Shown: one piece after another, positions 46,068 to 53,727 of the stretch | Numbering within the stretch: the stretch's first letter is position 1 | How the letters are laid out: the number at the start of each line of letters is the position of its first letter | From: Chlorobiaceae bacterium | GTDB taxonomy: Bacteria > Bacteroidota > Chlorobiia > Chlorobiales > Chlorobiaceae | Direction: 5' to 3' | Length of the DNA: 64,000 nt | Assembly (NCBI GenBank): GCA_013334755.1 | Contig: JAAXWX010000003.1 | Location: forward strand, 1 to 64,000 | The notes under the pieces: model-generated | What the model was told of the DNA's origin: nothing | What the model saw: the letters and a program-made list of their open reading frames with translations, nothing else | Database searches by the model: none | Made by a program: the position numbers and the translations under genes

Positions 46068-47090
46068 ATGAGTAGTGTGGATTCCCGCTGCCGAGTGGCG
46101 GTACTTGGTGCAACCGGCCTTGTGGGCCGAACGATGATCAAGGTTCTGGAAGAGAGAAATTTCCCTGTGACTGACCTTGTTCCCCTTGCCTCATCAAGAA
46201 GCGCCGGTCAGGCGGTCACCTTCGGGGGCAAAGAGTTCATTATCCGTGAGCCTTCTGCCGAGGCTTTCGAGGGAGTTGATATCGCCCTGTTTTCTGCAGG
46301 CGCGACAGCCAGCAAAGAGTGGGCTGTGGTTGCAGCCGCAGAAGGCGCGGTTGTTATCGACAATTCATCGGCATTCCGCATGGAGCCCGATGTGCCTCTG
46401 GTTGTGCCCGAGGTCAATCCCGAAGCTATTTTCAGGGCAGATGGCACCCCCGAGCGGATCATTGCCAATCCCAACTGTTCGACCATTCAGATGGTGGTGG
46501 TGCTCAAGCCGCTTCATGACCGCTTCGGCGTCAAGAGGGTGGTTGTTTCGACCTACCAGTCGGTTACCGGCAAAGGAAAGATCGGGCGCGATGCCCTTGA
46601 AAGCGAGCTTGCCGGAGAGAGCCAGGAGCAGTTCACCCATTTTCACCAGATTGCCTTCAACGCCGTGCCGCAAATCGATGCTTTCACCGATAACGGCTAT
46701 ACCAAGGAGGAGATGAAGATGGTCAACGAAACCCGCAAGATCATGGGCGACAAGAATATGAGCATTTCGCCTACCACGGTGCGTATTCCGGTCTATGGCG
46801 GCCACGGCGAATCGCTCAACATAGAGCTCGAGAGTGAATTTGATATCGAAGAAGTACGAGAACTGCTTCGTCAATCACCCGGTATTATCCTGCAGGATGA
46901 TCCTTCAGCGAGGCTCTATCCCATGCCGCTCACCTCATATGAGCGCGACGATGTTTTTGTGGGCAGGATTCGCCGTGATTACTGGCATCCCCAGACCCTG
47001 AACATGTGGATTGTGGCCGATAACCTCCGGAAAGGCGCGGCAACCAATGCGGTGCAGATAGCCGAAGTGGTTATTGCGAAGAAAGGATAA
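46068..47090 (+). CDS. asd: Aspartate-semialdehyde dehydrogenase
   Basis: Asd reduces aspartyl phosphate to the semialdehyde, the branch to lysine, threonine, methionine and diaminopimelate. Seen: VAVLGATGLVGRTMIKVLEE (NADP loop), ALFSAGATASKEW, the active-site cysteine in IIANPNCSTIQMVV, and TTVRIPVYGGHGES. The 340 residues are typical. Its last 20 bases overlap the convergent gene at 47071-47955. Confidence 0.95.
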   Translation: MSSVDSRCRVAVLGATGLVGRTMIKVLEERNFPVTDLVPLASSRSAGQAVTFGGKEFIIREPSAEAFEGVDIALFSAGATASKEWAVVAAAEGAVVIDNSSAFRMEPDVPLVVPEVNPEAIFRADGTPERIIANPNCSTIQMVVVLKPLHDRFGVKRVVVSTYQSVTGKGKIGRDALESELAGESQEQFTHFHQIAFNAVPQIDAFTDNGYTKEEMKMVNETRKIMGDKNMSISPTTVRIPVYGGHGESLNIELESEFDIEEVRELLRQSPGIILQDDPSARLYPMPLTSYERDDVFVGRIRRDYWHPQTLNMWIVADNLRKGAATNAVQIAEVVIAKKG

Positions 47091-47955
47091 ATTCCTTGTT
47101 GTTCGAAAGAGCCATCAGTGCCGAGCTGATGGCTTTGACTGCAGCCGCAGAAGAGAAGGGAAGTTTTTGCGGATTATTGATGGCAATAGATGGGGGTATG
47201 CCGAGCGGTTTCAGCTTAATGGATGTCTCCCTCTGGATCAGCGCGATCATTGTCTTGTCGGCCATTGAGCCGGTAACCTGCACACCGGCATCCTGACAGA
47301 CAGGGTTGTCGATAAGTATATGTATGGTAAAGTATTCAATCTCCTTCCGGTTTTTGACTTCCCTGCATGAGAATTTTTCTATCCTGCCCTTACTTGATAT
47401 TGTCAGGAGAATAAAGTTGTTCTCAACTTCAAGGATTACCTGTGTATTACTTGTGTGTTTTGAAAGGTGGAGAAGAGGCAGCTGTGGAGTACCCCTGAAT
47501 ACGATCCGGTGAGTTGTTGAAAAGTGTTCGGAGACTTTTCTGCAGGGTTCTGCAGGATAGAAGAGCAGGATTTTTTTTTCAAGCAGCCCATGGCTGTTGT
47601 CGCCGTAAGAGGTAATATCGAAATCATACTCTTCAGGTTGGTTTAAAAAGTAACCCGCTTCGATTCTGCCGTACTTCCTGCTCTCCTCACTGCTTGCATT
47701 GGCGGGAAAGCAGGCGGGAAGGGGAAGATAGCTTTTCGGCCCGATACAGAGTGCGAGTTCTTCATCCGGCCACTCATTGAGTTGGTTGTCCAGTTTTTTC
47801 AGAAGTCGTTTACCTCTGTCAAAAGCAAAGTCACCAAGGCCGAATGGCAGAGTTTTACACAAACTCAGGCTGTATTCTGTGTCACCTGACGTTTTAAGCC
47901 GGACAAGAGCGCACTCTTTGGCGTCGATGGCGCAGGCGATCAGGCTTTTGCTCAT
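47071..47955 (-). CDS. Unknown conserved-looking protein, possible actin-like (PilM/DUF3822-like) fold
   Basis: I do not recognise this 294-residue protein. It begins MSKSLIACAIDAKECALVRL, which could be the first strand-turn-strand of an ASKHA (actin-like) domain, and the central VILEVENNFILLTISSKGRIE looks like a second such turn; this is only a resemblance. There is no signal peptide or membrane segment. Its ATG overlaps the stop of the ComEA-like gene (TAATG), so it is the third gene of alr-comEA-unknown. A link to DNA uptake or pili is possible from that neighbour but unproven. Confidence 0.7.
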   Translation of the reverse strand: MSKSLIACAIDAKECALVRLKTSGDTEYSLSLCKTLPFGLGDFAFDRGKRLLKKLDNQLNEWPDEELALCIGPKSYLPLPACFPANASSEESRKYGRIEAGYFLNQPEEYDFDITSYGDNSHGLLEKKILLFYPAEPCRKVSEHFSTTHRIVFRGTPQLPLLHLSKHTSNTQVILEVENNFILLTISSKGRIEKFSCREVKNRKEIEYFTIHILIDNPVCQDAGVQVTGSMADKTMIALIQRETSIKLKPLGIPPSIAINNPQKLPFSSAAAVKAISSALMALSNNKEFILSSQ

Positions 47956-48470
47956 TATTCCAGTGTGAAATATTTTTTGAGGGATTCAAGCTTTTTTTTA
48001 CCGATTCCTTTTACAGCAAGAAAGTCTTCAAATTGTTGCACTTTCCCCCCTTTTTTGCTTCTGAAGGCAATCAGGCGTTCGGCCATAACCGGCCCGATTC
48101 CCGGAATTTTCTGTAACTGCCGGCTGCTGGCTTTATTGAAAGCAATCGTACCGGTGAACACCTTTTTTCCTGACGAGCGGTGCTCTGTTTTTTTTCCATC
48201 GGCAATCTCATCGCCTTCTGTTTTTACCTCTTGCAGCATCTCCTCTTTCACTGTTGCCTGCTCCATGGTGGCAAGGCTGATAAGGCTGTCGACTTCTGTT
48301 TCACGGTAACGGGCCGTTTCCGTCTTTTTGAGAAGGGTCGCCGCATCCTCTACGGAACGGATATTTTTAAGGACGCCTCCAAGAACCAGAAATCCCAAAA
48401 GAATAGAAATCAGAGAGATTTCTGCTTTTGTAAGGCTAAGTCTGATTGAAAGTTTTTCCAGGGGATTCAT
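47955..48470 (-). CDS. ComEA-like helix-hairpin-helix DNA-binding protein with N-terminal membrane anchor
   Basis: The 171-residue protein has one N-terminal membrane segment (ISLISILLGFLVLGGVL), a charged linker with many glutamates, and a C-terminal pair of helix-hairpin-helix motifs: FNKASSRQLQKIPGIGPVMA and FEDFLAVKGIGKKKLESLKK. This is the layout of ComEA, which binds incoming DNA in natural transformation, but similar HhH proteins have other roles. I choose the ATG at 48470, which overlaps the alr stop codon as ATGA; the ORF track start lies inside alr. Confidence 0.8.
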   Translation of the reverse strand: MNPLEKLSIRLSLTKAEISLISILLGFLVLGGVLKNIRSVEDAATLLKKTETARYRETEVDSLISLATMEQATVKEEMLQEVKTEGDEIADGKKTEHRSSGKKVFTGTIAFNKASSRQLQKIPGIGPVMAERLIAFRSKKGGKVQQFEDFLAVKGIGKKKLESLKKYFTLE

Positions 48471-49618
48471 ATAAATATACGTTTTACTCTGGAAGAAACC
48501 GAACAAAGCGTTTCGTAGCTGATGGTTCCGGAAATTTCGGCAAGATCATCTGCTGATGGTTTGTCCCAACCGAAGAGAATCGCCGTGTCTCCTTTTTTGA
48601 CATCGTGCACTGCGCCCAGGTCAACCATAATCTGGTCCATCGTAACTGTACCGACCTGCGGATAAGAGTTGCCGTTGATTGTGATGGTGGTGCGGCATGA
48701 CAGGCTCCTTGCATAACCATCGGCGTAACCTGCGGCTATGGTTGCGATATACCGTGGTTCCCGGGCAGTCCATGTTCTGTTATAGCTGATGGTAGTTCCT
48801 GCCTGCACGGGTTTGATAAAAATCACTTTTGCTTCGAACTGCATGACCGGTTTGACGTTGAGGCGGAAAGGAGTGTGTTTTGCCGGATGGTAACCATAGA
48901 GCAGAATGCCTGGCCTCACCATATCAAGCCAGGATTCAGGTGTCGAGAGGATTGCTCCGCTGTTGGCGGTGTGTTTGCAGACTGTTCTGGCGGAAGCATG
49001 CTCATATTCTGCCGTGAGTGTTTTAAAAGCTTCGAGCTGTATTTTGGTGAAGCCTTCGGCTGATGTACTGTCGGCAAAGTGGGTATAGATTCCTTTCAGC
49101 TCAAGGTGCGGGGAGCGATCGATCTGCCTGAGAAGCTCCATGGCAACAGAAGGGGGAGTGCCAAGTCGTCCCATGCCCGTATCGACTTTTAGCTGTACGG
49201 CAAGTGTTTTGCTGTGTGCGGCAGCAATTTCTTCTGCAGCATGAAGTGTGGGGCTGTCGCAGACGGTCATGTCTATGCCATATTGCAGGTAAAACTCGAT
49301 ATGCGAAAGAAGCGGCGAAGAAAAGGCGAGAATTGTCGCTGGTTGCTTCAGAGCGCCTCCGGTTTTCAGCTCAATGGCTTCATGGATGTTTGCTACACCA
49401 AAATCTTTGATGCCAACCCTTTCAAGCGTTTCGGCAACCCTGTGGACGTTATGACCGTAGGCATTTGCCTTGACGATACCCATGATACGAGTTTTTTCGC
49501 CGACTCGATCGCGGATCAGGCGAGTGTTCCATGCGAGATTGTCGATGGAGACAACGGCCTCTGTCATGTTTTCAGCAGGAATTCCCCTTGCCGAAAAGCC
49601 TGGTTCTTTTTCATCCAT
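48467..49618 (-). CDS. alr: Alanine racemase
   Basis: Alr makes D-alanine for peptidoglycan using PLP. Seen: MGIVKANAYGHNVHRVAETL with the PLP lysine, VQLKVDTGMGRLGTPPS, MVRPGILLYGYHPA, a TISYNRTWTA segment with the catalytic-tyrosine region, and DQIMVDLGAVHDVKKGDTA. The 383 residues are normal; ATG at MTEAVVSIDN would trim 17 residues. It is the first gene of the alr-comEA-unknown operon. Confidence 0.93.
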   Translation of the reverse strand: MDEKEPGFSARGIPAENMTEAVVSIDNLAWNTRLIRDRVGEKTRIMGIVKANAYGHNVHRVAETLERVGIKDFGVANIHEAIELKTGGALKQPATILAFSSPLLSHIEFYLQYGIDMTVCDSPTLHAAEEIAAAHSKTLAVQLKVDTGMGRLGTPPSVAMELLRQIDRSPHLELKGIYTHFADSTSAEGFTKIQLEAFKTLTAEYEHASARTVCKHTANSGAILSTPESWLDMVRPGILLYGYHPAKHTPFRLNVKPVMQFEAKVIFIKPVQAGTTISYNRTWTAREPRYIATIAAGYADGYARSLSCRTTITINGNSYPQVGTVTMDQIMVDLGAVHDVKKGDTAILFGWDKPSADDLAEISGTISYETLCSVSSRVKRIFI

Positions 49619-50008
49619 AAAAGCTGCTATTAATTTTTTATCGGAATAGTTCCATAAAAGGAATCAGGTGTATTCCGACAACATCGGGAGTTTATTTGGC
49701 TCTCTTTATAATTGTCCTGTCAACCGGTCTGGCTTTGAAGCCCGAACGCTCAAGACGATTGTGCAAGATGCTTCTGATGCGGCTTCAGGAGATCAGCTTT
49801 CTCTGATGCCACAATTTCTTGTAAAAAAACATATTTTGCACCTGATTATCAAACCGTAAAGAAACTTATTCATCCGGTATCGTTAATTGAAAGGATGTTC
49901 GGCAAACCCCTCCCTTCAGGAAAGGGAGTATCTTAACAATTAATGTATATTTTCTGTTAAACGTCATCAGGTATCGTTTTCACTTTAACTCATTTCTCAG
50001 CTATAATC
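49619..50008. other. Intergenic region between divergent alr and the CBS-like gene
   Basis: There are 390 bases without a convincing gene; a 63-codon plus-strand ORF (49668-49859) has no family look. A small hairpin CTCCCTT / AAGGGAG lies at 49910-49928, about 80 bases before the next start, and could be part of a leader. The region should carry divergent promoters. Confidence 0.5.
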
Positions 50009-51382
50009 ATGTCGAACCACGATATATTCGGGCTTGCCGCAGAAACGCCGATGGTTCTTGTAAAACAGATGGCCCGCCAGATCAGGCCGACGGTCATGGC
50101 CAAACTTGAGTTCATGAATCCAGCCTGGTCGCATTATTACAGGGTGGCATCAGCCATTGTCAGGGATGCTGAGGAACGCAAGCTGATTCATCCGGGCATG
50201 ACCCTTGTTGACTGGACTTTTGGCAGCAGCGGGATCGCCCTGGCTATGGCTGGAGTGAGCCGGGGCTACAAGCTGCTGCTGGCTGCTCCTGATAAAATAT
50301 CGCAGGAGAAGCAGGATATGCTCAGGGCTCTCGGTGCGGAACTGGTTATTACCCCTTCGGATGCGTTGCCCGGAGAGCCTCGAAGCTGTATGAATGTGGC
50401 TGAAAGTCTTGTGAGAAGTATTCCGAATGCCTTTTTTGCCGGAATGTATGAGAACCCTCTCAGCTTTAAGGTTCACAGTGAAACCACCGGCAGCGAGATT
50501 TTCAGCCAGACAGAGGGTCGGGTTACCCATGTTTTTGTGCCGATGATTTCCGGCGCAATGGTTTTCGGGATCGCTTCTTTTCTGAAAGCAAAGAATCCCG
50601 GGATCAAAATTATCGGTGTCGAGTCGCAGGGTTCAATCTATTACGATCTTTTTAAGGACGGAAAGCCTGGAGTTGCGGCATTTTCCGAGCTTGAGGAAAT
50701 AGGTTCCCGGCAGCCCTCAGCATTCTGGGATCCTTCAGCTTTAGATGATGTGATGCAGGTAAGCGATTATGACGCATTCAACTGCGGCAGGGAACTCTTG
50801 CGGATGGAAGCTGTTTTTGCCGGGGGTGCATCTGGTGCAGCTATGGCTGCAGCACTTCGGGCTGGAGAAACGTATGGTGAGGATGATTGTGTGGTTGTGG
50901 TGATGAATGATTTTGGCGGATATTATCTCAGCAAGATGTACCGTGACGAGTGGATGCGCAAGCGCGGCTATTATCGAAAGGCAAAATCAGCCCTTGAACA
51001 GATTACAGCCGAAGATATTCTGCACTTGAAGGCGCGCAGGAATCTGATTTTCGCTTATCCGGAAAATACGCTTGCGGAAGTGTTTGAGATGATGAAGCAG
51101 AACGACGTCTCCCAGCTTCCTATAGTTTCCTATAACGCTCCGATAGGCAGTATCAGTGAAAACAAGATTCTTTCTATTCTTATTGAAAACGATGACGCCA
51201 TGAACTCAAAGGTTGTCGGGTTTATGGAGAAGCCATTTCCGGTCTGCCGACTGGATGCAACGATTTCCGAATTATCCGACAAACTGCAGCAAAGTGCATC
51301 CGGAGTACTGATAAGCTTGTCTGATGGACAACTTCAATTGCTTACAAAATCAGATCTTATTGATGCATTGACTCATAAATGA
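50009..51382 (+). CDS. Cystathionine beta-synthase-like protein with C-terminal CBS domains; PLP lysine missing
   Basis: The 457-residue protein has the fold of the cysteine-synthase/cystathionine beta-synthase family (about 1-330) followed by a pair of CBS sensor domains (about 335-457; DILHLKARRNLIFAYPENTL, SQLPIV). Alignment to the family is plain (AKLEFMNP, LRALGAELVITP, IIGVESQGS), but key residues are gone. The PLP lysine in the usual N-P-x-x-S-V-K-D-R is tyrosine 43 in NPAWSHYYR; the phosphate/substrate loop T-S-G-N-T-G reads TFGSSG; and the G-T-G-G-T phosphate loop reads PMISGA. It should not do PLP chemistry. Nucleotide sensing or a regulatory or scaffold role is possible. It has no operon partner. 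Confidence 0.88.
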   Translation: MSNHDIFGLAAETPMVLVKQMARQIRPTVMAKLEFMNPAWSHYYRVASAIVRDAEERKLIHPGMTLVDWTFGSSGIALAMAGVSRGYKLLLAAPDKISQEKQDMLRALGAELVITPSDALPGEPRSCMNVAESLVRSIPNAFFAGMYENPLSFKVHSETTGSEIFSQTEGRVTHVFVPMISGAMVFGIASFLKAKNPGIKIIGVESQGSIYYDLFKDGKPGVAAFSELEEIGSRQPSAFWDPSALDDVMQVSDYDAFNCGRELLRMEAVFAGGASGAAMAAALRAGETYGEDDCVVVVMNDFGGYYLSKMYRDEWMRKRGYYRKAKSALEQITAEDILHLKARRNLIFAYPENTLAEVFEMMKQNDVSQLPIVSYNAPIGSISENKILSILIENDDAMNSKVVGFMEKPFPVCRLDATISELSDKLQQSASGVLISLSDGQLQLLTKSDLIDALTHK

Positions 51383-51562
51383 GAGCAGTGGAATTATCTG
51401 GTTGTTTTTTTTAAGGGATTTATTTAATTAAGCACTCTGAACATTCCTCTTTTTTTTCAGGTGCGATGCACTATATTGCGCCATAAAGCCGGAAAAAATG
51501 TCGGGGGGGAAGTACTGAAAATCCTGACAGCTTCGAGCCGGGTTAATAACCAGCAATATGAT

Positions 51563-52123
51563 ATGAAGGTAGAATCCAGAAAAAGGCAGTTCATTTTGGA
51601 GGGGAAGATCAAGGCTTGCTTCTGTGAAGGATGCGGCCAGATTACAAACAAAGTGTTTGTCGGCGAATGGATGCCGAGCGATAAGCCGAAGGAGGATGAT
51701 TTTCTGACGGCCGTTGCTGTTAAAAAGCCTAAAGGCGGGAAAAATGGTACTGGTGAGTTGCATCCTGCAGCTGAAAATCAGTACTGGATTCGCTGTTCCG
51801 AATGCAATCAGGTCTTTCTTCTCAAGGAGTGGCAGATACAGATTGACCGGGAAGTCAAGCCTGATGAGCTGAAAGCGGAAGAGTGCCAGGTTTATTCTCC
51901 GCATGGTATTTATGCAAAAGGTGATGCACTGTATCACCAGGCACTTGGTGAGGTCGGGGTGGTCAGGGAAAAACAGGCGACAGGAAGCGGTGCGTTTGTC
52001 ATTATCGTTGAGTTTTGTAAAAGTGGCAGAAAACAGCTCCTTGAAAATGTGCAGATGAACTCTGGCAATGGAAAAAATTCGGAAAGTGTTACGGATATTA
52101 TTAAACTCAAACTAAGACGTTGA
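51563..52123 (+). CDS. Unknown protein with two cysteine pairs (zinc-ribbon-like)
   Basis: I do not recognise this gene. From ATG 51563 it encodes 186 residues starting MKVESRKRQFILEGKIKACF. Two cysteine clusters (CFCEGCG near residue 20 and CSECNQVF near residue 90) could together hold a zinc ion. The second half contains SPHGIYAKGDALYHQALGEV, a small beta-rich module somewhat like CarD/Tudor-type folds. The ORF track begins at a GTG at 51461, which would add 34 residues without a clear ribosome site. It lies just before rpsU in the same direction. Confidence 0.6.
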   Translation: MKVESRKRQFILEGKIKACFCEGCGQITNKVFVGEWMPSDKPKEDDFLTAVAVKKPKGGKNGTGELHPAAENQYWIRCSECNQVFLLKEWQIQIDREVKPDELKAEECQVYSPHGIYAKGDALYHQALGEVGVVREKQATGSGAFVIIVEFCKSGRKQLLENVQMNSGNGKNSESVTDIIKLKLRR

Positions 52124-52147: not shown

Positions 52148-52345
52148 TTGGTTAGTGTGCAGATAAATGATAATGAATCGATCGATAAAATGCTGAAACG
52201 CTTCAAGAAAAAGTATGAGCGTGCAGGTGTTTTAAAGGAGTTTCGTGCAAACGCATACTTTGTTAAACCTTCGGTGGATGGTCGTTTGAAGCGCTCAAGA
52301 AGCAGGCGGAGAGCGCAGAGGGCAAATGAAGAACGCAATTCATGA
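52148..52345 (+). CDS. rpsU: 30S ribosomal protein S21
   Basis: S21 is a small basic protein of the 30S subunit. The 65 residues read [20 protein letters not shown] then [18 protein letters not shown], a standard S21. The start codon is TTG at 52148: it is preceded by AAAAGGGGGTG seven bases upstream, and no ATG is available before conserved sequence begins. It is followed by an intrinsic terminator. Confidence 0.95.
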
Positions 52346-52425: not shown

Positions 52426-53727
52426 ATGAGAGTGTTCAAAGGTGAAGTTACAGCATTACCACCCGACAAATCAATTTCCCACCGTGCGGCACTTATTGGT
52501 GCGCTCTCGGAAGGAACAACAGAGATAACGAACTTTTCAGGCGGATTTGACAATCAGTCCACCCTGGGAGTTCTGAAAGATGCCGGGATCATTCTTCGAC
52601 AGGAAGATGTGGATGGCGGCTACGGCCGTCGTATCAGACGGGTCGTTATCGAATCAGGTGGATTATGGAGTTTTTTACCGCCTTCAGCTCCTCTGATGTG
52701 CAATAATTCAGGAAGTACCATGCGCATGTTTGCCGGTATTCTTGCTGCCCAGCCTTTTGCAAGCGAGTTGATCGGCGACAGTTCTCTGATGAAGAGGCCA
52801 ATGAAAAGGGTTGCTGACCCGTTGCGACAGATGGGTGCCGATGTTGAGCTTTCTTTGGCGGGAACAGCACCAATCAGAATTAAAGGGACAAAAGAGCTGA
52901 AGCCCATCGAGTATCGTCTTCCGGTCCCCTCGGCGCAGGTGAAGTCGCTTGTGGCTTTTGCCGCTCTTCATGCTGACGGTGAATCGAGGATTATCGAGTC
53001 GGTTCGTTCGCGTGACCATACCGAAGTGATGCTTGGTCTTGAGAGCATTGAACATGAGGGGGAGCGGGTCATTGTCGTGCCAGGTCGAAAAGCTGTTGCA
53101 GCAAAACCTTTCTATATACCCGCAGACCCCTCTGCAGCTTGTTTCATTGTGGCGCTTGGCCTGCTTGCCCGCGGTTCGGAGATCATCATCAGGGATGTCT
53201 GCCTCAATCCGACGCGGGCGGCATTTCTTGATATCCTGACTGACGCCGGTGCGGGATTGACGATTGAAAACCAGCGCGTGATTGGCGGTGAAATGATCGG
53301 TGACATTCTGGTTCAGAACCATGCGGGGCTGGAACCCCTCATGATCCTCGATCCGCAGGTGGTTGCCTATATCATTGATGAAATACCGATGCTTGCTGTT
53401 CTTTCCGCCTTTGCTTCAGGCCGCTTTGAACTGCACAACGCTGCCGAGTTGAGAACAAAAGAGAGTGACCGGATTGATGCACTTGTTGTTAATCTTCAGC
53501 GTCTTGGCTTTGATTGTGAACAGTATCCTGACGGTTTCATGGTCAAGGGCCGCCGGATAACCCCGTCAGGAACGGTGGTCATCGACAGTTTTGATGATCA
53601 CAGAATTGCCATGAGTTTTGCCATTGCGAGCAAAGCAACAGGGTGCCCCCTTGATATTACCGATATCGATGTGGTTGGTGTCTCGTTTCCGAATTTTTTT
53701 GCATTGCTTGAAAGCCTGGAAGCCTGA
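52426..53727 (+). CDS. aroA: 3-phosphoshikimate 1-carboxyvinyltransferase (EPSP synthase)
   Basis: AroA joins shikimate 3-phosphate and phosphoenolpyruvate in aromatic amino-acid synthesis. Seen: [20 protein letters not shown] (phosphate-binding lysine), [51 protein letters not shown] and [15 protein letters not shown]. The 433 residues and all motifs are complete. The ATG lies 23 bases after the rpsU terminator. Confidence 0.95.

Follow-up and report, generated by a model that had tools for sequence, protein, structure and literature searches.

A cystathionine beta-synthase homologue without its cofactor lysine is maintained in Chlorobiaceae

The gene considered here lies at 50009..51382 (+ strand) of the window, by which we mean the whole stretch of 64,000 nucleotides of Chlorobiaceae DNA that was analysed, and encodes 457 amino acids, intact from ATG to stop. 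We call the product pseudo-CBS. Residues 1-322 (50009..50974, +) form the former catalytic domain, a PALP domain of fold type II, and residues 330-457 (50996..51379, +) form a pair of CBS domains (Bateman module), which is now the most conserved part. Pfam placed PALP at residues 10-299 (E 6.6e-56) and called a single CBS domain at 342-392 (E 1e-12); the second CBS domain was under Pfam's reach and was seen in the structural model and by alignment to Rv1077, the cystathionine beta-synthase of M. tuberculosis. This alignment ran nearly end to end (residues 8-452, E 4e-70) and was colinear over PALP domain and CBS pair; Rv1077 exemplifies the bacterial cystathionine beta-synthases with a Bateman module. 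The whole-length family similarity claimed in the initial annotation was thus confirmed, as was its description of an intact, maintained reading frame: no internal stops were found in the family, and dN/dS was below 0.2. However, the protein scored only 319 bits against the cystathionine beta-synthase model TIGR01137, whose curated cut-off is 510 bits. The AlphaFold2 model (mean pLDDT 81, pTM 0.66) had a full-length CBS fold and matched full-length CBS structures, but with the two halves placed differently (rmsd ~13). Its core matched PLP enzymes in Foldseek, including CapA1 and the L. pneumophila CBS (TM 0.86-0.91 by target length, rmsd 2.2-2.7), which agrees with Pfam in assigning the protein to the PALP superfamily.

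The neighbouring genes are alr (48467..49618, -), which is divergently transcribed, and, downstream on the + strand, a zinc-ribbon-like protein with two Cys pairs (51461..52123, GTG start uncertain), rpsU (52148..52345, encoding bS21; PF01165, E 8e-17) and aroA (52426..53727). The zinc-ribbon-like protein had no Pfam match above cut-off, Zn_ribbon_5 being sub-threshold. Synteny anchors were aroA and, within Chlorobiaceae, alr. Between alr and the pseudo-CBS gene, a stretch like AAAAAACATATTTTGCACCTGATTATCAAA (49825-49857) was kept in most of 13 Chlorobiaceae and is probably a promoter or operator. No riboswitch or other RNA family was detected near the gene, so no RNA element ties it to AdoMet.

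The gene is retained in the Chlorobiaceae genomes whose locus is assembled. When 61 genomes of the family were searched, all but a few contained a full-length match with 68-93% identity. Most of the genomes in which the gene was missing or fragmentary also lacked aroA and/or alr, or their contig ended there, and the absences (G059, G034, G082 and others) were therefore mostly counted as assembly gaps; in the incomplete genomes G038, G040 and G080, aroA was missing along with pseudo-CBS. No relatives were found on viral contigs, and those in a plasmid collection were all below 60% identity and, where annotated, were ordinary CBS, CysK or PLP enzymes. One Chlorobium genome (G065:C44, L075, 4493-5836) also carried a second, divergent CBS of 29-30% identity in which the lysine is preserved (NPGGSIKDR), either a later acquisition or a binning contamination.

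The family alignment comprised 70 rows, corresponding to 67 distinct sequences from Chlorobium, Chlorobaculum, Pelodictyon and uncultured Chlorobiaceae, with Prosthecochloris outside the sample. The lysine that forms the Schiff base with PLP, in the motif N-P-x-x-S-[VI]-K-D-R, was missing from all 67. At the corresponding motif of the window, NPAWSHYYR (residues 37-45; 50117..50143, +), the initial annotation had read the catalytic lysine as Tyr43 (codon 50135-50137), and the alignment bears this out: position 43 was Tyr in 69 of 70 rows and Ser in one, while Lys occupied it in 30 of 30 active-type homologues, a pattern far beyond chance. Its readings of the two other loops also held, TFGSSG (70-75; 50216..50233, +) replacing TSGNTG or TAGNTG and PMISGAM (178-184; 50540..50560, +) replacing the GTGGT phosphate loop. 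In addition, the Ser that contacts the pyridine N1, found at this position in all 30 active-type homologues, was replaced by Ala274 (50828..50830, +) in 68 of 70 rows, and further PLP contacts were changed, namely D44 to Tyr/Cys, Q146 to Met and R305 to Tyr. Pseudo-CBS thus has neither the phosphate loop (ISGAM) nor the N1 serine of a CBS enzyme. Of the 80 positions at which at least 97% of the 30 active-type homologues agree, 39 were retained in Chlorobiaceae; K43, D44, T74, Q146, the G180-T184 loop, S274 and R305 were among those lost or altered. The family alignment contained no newly fixed or invariant lysine in the former site. The orthologues in green sulfur bacteria of this family, which the initial annotation had proposed to inspect, share the lysine loss; near-identical orthologues with an intact lysine, which would have pointed to a local mutation, were not found, and intact positional orthologues appeared only at 45-48% identity. 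Tyr43 is therefore a clade-wide trait of Chlorobiaceae and no local mutation, and pseudo-CBS is, judged by these residues, a dead cystathionine beta-synthase. The single family member with Ser at position 43 (NPAWSHSYR) was seen in G084 (L081, 5204-6574).

In the loops that formerly held PLP, conservation was higher than elsewhere in the domain (entropy 0.45 vs 0.83), and among 313 circular shifts only the unshifted arrangement gave an entropy as low as 0.45. The replacements in the former cofactor shell were G39 to Ala/Cys, G40 to Cys/Trp/Phe, K43 to Tyr, D44 to Tyr/Cys, S71 to Phe/Tyr, Q146 to Met, G183 to Ala, T184 to Met, S274 to Ala and R305 to Tyr. For these shell positions, picked from knowledge of CBS structures and loops once the alignment had been seen, the summed side-chain volume was ~570 cubic angstroms above that of active-type homologues, with no overlap between the groups, and the shell was more hydrophobic than the active-type one. 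These data suggest that the former cavity is packed with side chains. A repurposed hydrophobic or small-molecule site, or chemistry without a lysine, could equally account for so conserved a shell.

The distribution of constraint over the protein was inverted. Between Chlorobium and Chlorobaculum, identity was 63% in the catalytic half and 81% in the CBS pair, and the catalytic half was ahead in 0 of 936 pairs, whereas it was ahead in 90 of 90 pairs of the active-type sisters (77% vs 65%) and in 380 of 380 pairs of CBSs from the phylum (64% vs 35%), three genomes being entered twice in these pairwise comparisons. With a fixed topology, the ratio of CBS-pair to catalytic tree length was 0.25 in Chlorobiaceae, 1.53 in the sisters and 3.1 in the phylum. 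For close pairs, dN/dS was ~0.05-0.11 in the catalytic half and 0.02-0.05 in the CBS pair; dS was similar in both halves, so the constraint acts on the protein. Purifying selection on the gene is strong, and the CBS pair is now better conserved than the formerly better conserved catalytic half. With catalytic residues lost and purifying selection across a clade, pseudo-CBS qualifies by its sequence as a pseudoenzyme, and the earlier view of a dead sulfur-amino-acid enzyme that is still maintained is supported, the CBS module being held tightest.

Ten genomes of the same order (G088-G097), from the sister families f3 and f4, contained proteins 45-48% identical to pseudo-CBS in which all motifs were intact (NPGGS[VI]KDR, TAGNTG, GTGGT and GGSSG). 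The gene order CBS, zinc-ribbon-like protein, rpsU, aroA was found in Chlorobiaceae and at most f3/f4 loci, while the sister loci L069 and L072 had no matching neighbours. The Chlorobiaceae and sister-family copies formed one clade in the tree (support 1.0), in which the Chlorobiaceae stem was long, at 0.77 substitutions per site, and they have Trp69 in common, which is mostly missing from other sampled CBSs of the phylum. Unlike pseudo-CBS, the f3/f4 proteins retain the lysine, TAGNTG, GTGGT and the serine, and their catalytic half is the conserved one; from these residues they are presumed to be active. CBS was absent from both f2 genomes, and in one of them (G087) alr and aroA lay 1.3 kb apart with no CBS between. 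Comparison of these loci reveals three fates of one locus: intact in the sister families, deleted in f2 and converted in Chlorobiaceae. Since an intact enzyme occupies the same locus in the sister families, the conversion most simply happened once, on the Chlorobiaceae stem, and the loss of PLP contacts would most simply be a single event before the Chlorobium/Chlorobaculum split. The zinc-ribbon-like protein was linked to CBS, rpsU and aroA in the intact and the pseudo-CBS lineages alike.

These lineages also differed in CysE. All nine of the Chlorobiaceae and f2 genomes that were tested had a CysE above its curated cut-off, and none of the seven tested f3/f4 genomes with an intact CBS did (G090 had a sub-cut-off relative), a contrast that is a correlation over few lineages. 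CysK-type proteins were found in every genome tested and were above the curated cut-off in all Chlorobiaceae tested. An intact CysK (NPGGSVKDR) is encoded next to a cysE-like gene in the genome of the window; this CysK was the only close PALP relative of pseudo-CBS found there (~34% identity), and like O-acetylserine sulfhydrylases generally it shares the PALP fold with pseudo-CBS but has no CBS pair and retains the lysine. Because cysteine could be obtained from sulfide by CysE and CysK, catalysis by CBS would be dispensable.

In the CBS pair, the ribose-binding-type motif T446-K-S-D449 of CBS2 (51344..51355, +) is retained: D449 was present in 70 of 70 family rows and 30 of 30 active-type homologues, and T446 in 64 of 70 and 29 of 30. 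The canonical aspartate of the CBS1 motif was missing from both groups alike. Retention of T-K-S-D is compatible with binding of an adenosyl ligand, but it singles out no new role because active-type homologues, Rv1077-type enzymes included, conserve this T-x-S-D as well. From Rv1077-type enzymes pseudo-CBS otherwise differs in the missing PLP lysine, the changed phosphate loop and N1 serine, the apparently filled site, the inverted constraint and the score below the TIGR01137 cut-off.

We consider the best explanation, with a probability of about 0.62, to be a clade-wide pseudoenzyme that arose from an active-type, Bateman-domain cystathionine beta-synthase and became a ligand-responsive regulatory or scaffold protein, a change enabled by the CysE/CysK route. 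According to this hypothesis, cysteine supply by CysE and CysK would have freed CBS from its catalytic job and left the sensing or regulatory one. Pseudo-CBS would no longer bind PLP, side chains would fill the old cavity, and the PALP fold would act as a scaffold or bind a partner, in a state that may be set by a ligand on the CBS pair; AdoMet, AMP or another adenosyl compound is the most likely candidate. The target would probably lie in sulfur amino acid or one-carbon metabolism. The more specific proposal of a stand-alone sensor, that is, a cofactor-less CBS acting as a ligand-gated regulator of sulfur or one-carbon metabolism throughout Chlorobiaceae, with the active ancestral state preserved at the sister loci, is more tentative, and we rate it at somewhat less than even odds.

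Other readings deserve attention. A new enzyme or ligand site in the PALP fold, performing PLP-independent chemistry or holding a small molecule under regulation by the CBS pair, would centre on Tyr43, Arg45, Asp68, Ser74, Ser181, Glu205, Phe302 and Tyr305. That the former active-site shell still ranks among the best conserved parts of the domain, with several polar residues newly fixed in it, speaks for such a site; nevertheless, the net shift to bulk and hydrophobicity points to a filled cavity, residues 180 and 40 are free to vary, and evolution has been faster in the catalytic half than in the CBS pair, and we regard this reading as unlikely. Somewhat less probable again is a regulatory subunit that modulates CysK, an active PALP relative, by forming a heteromer with it. 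Fold type II enzymes dimerise through the PALP domain, and a CysK above its curated cut-off occurs in all Chlorobiaceae tested, intact and beside a cysE-like gene in the window's genome, but the two genes are unlinked and the proteins are just ~34% identical.

The two remaining readings are both close to excluded. An enzyme still active with PLP, in which another residue or free PLP stands in for the lysine, would fit the conserved fold and the high PALP score in Pfam, and yet the remaining PLP contacts have changed together, the site has no new invariant lysine, and the score is far under the TIGR01137 cut-off (319 vs 510 bits); its probability is very small. Smaller still is that of a decaying gene or a sequencing or assembly error: the catalytic residues are indeed gone, but 67 distinct sequences from many independent assemblies, free of internal stops, together with a dN/dS well under 0.2, refute it, and most absences go with missing anchor genes or contig ends.

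Pseudoenzymes as such are common and well known. What is rare among bacterial ones is a conversion for which the intact orthologue still occupies the locus, both sides are densely sampled and the shift of constraint from the catalytic to the sensor half can be measured. For cystathionine beta-synthase, PMC4133348 describes C. elegans CBS-1 as having tandem catalytic regions in one chain (citing Vozdek 2012). Our literature search, which mostly covered papers outside subscription journals, found no description of an inactive CBS from green sulfur bacteria. One of the two catalytic modules of the C. elegans protein is reportedly degenerate and offers a precedent for a pseudo-domain in a CBS; that pseudo-domain is fused to an active module, whereas pseudo-CBS stands alone and is clade-wide. 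Neither the annotation of the Chlorobiaceae gene as cystathionine beta-synthase nor the reverse transsulfuration credited to green sulfur bacteria on its basis is supported by the sequence. Chlorobaculum tepidum, a green sulfur bacterium, is genetically tractable. Elsewhere in the window, positions 47074-47955 encode a protein without a Pfam match that evolves much faster (32-63% identity) than its neighbours and always lies beside an HHH-motif protein.
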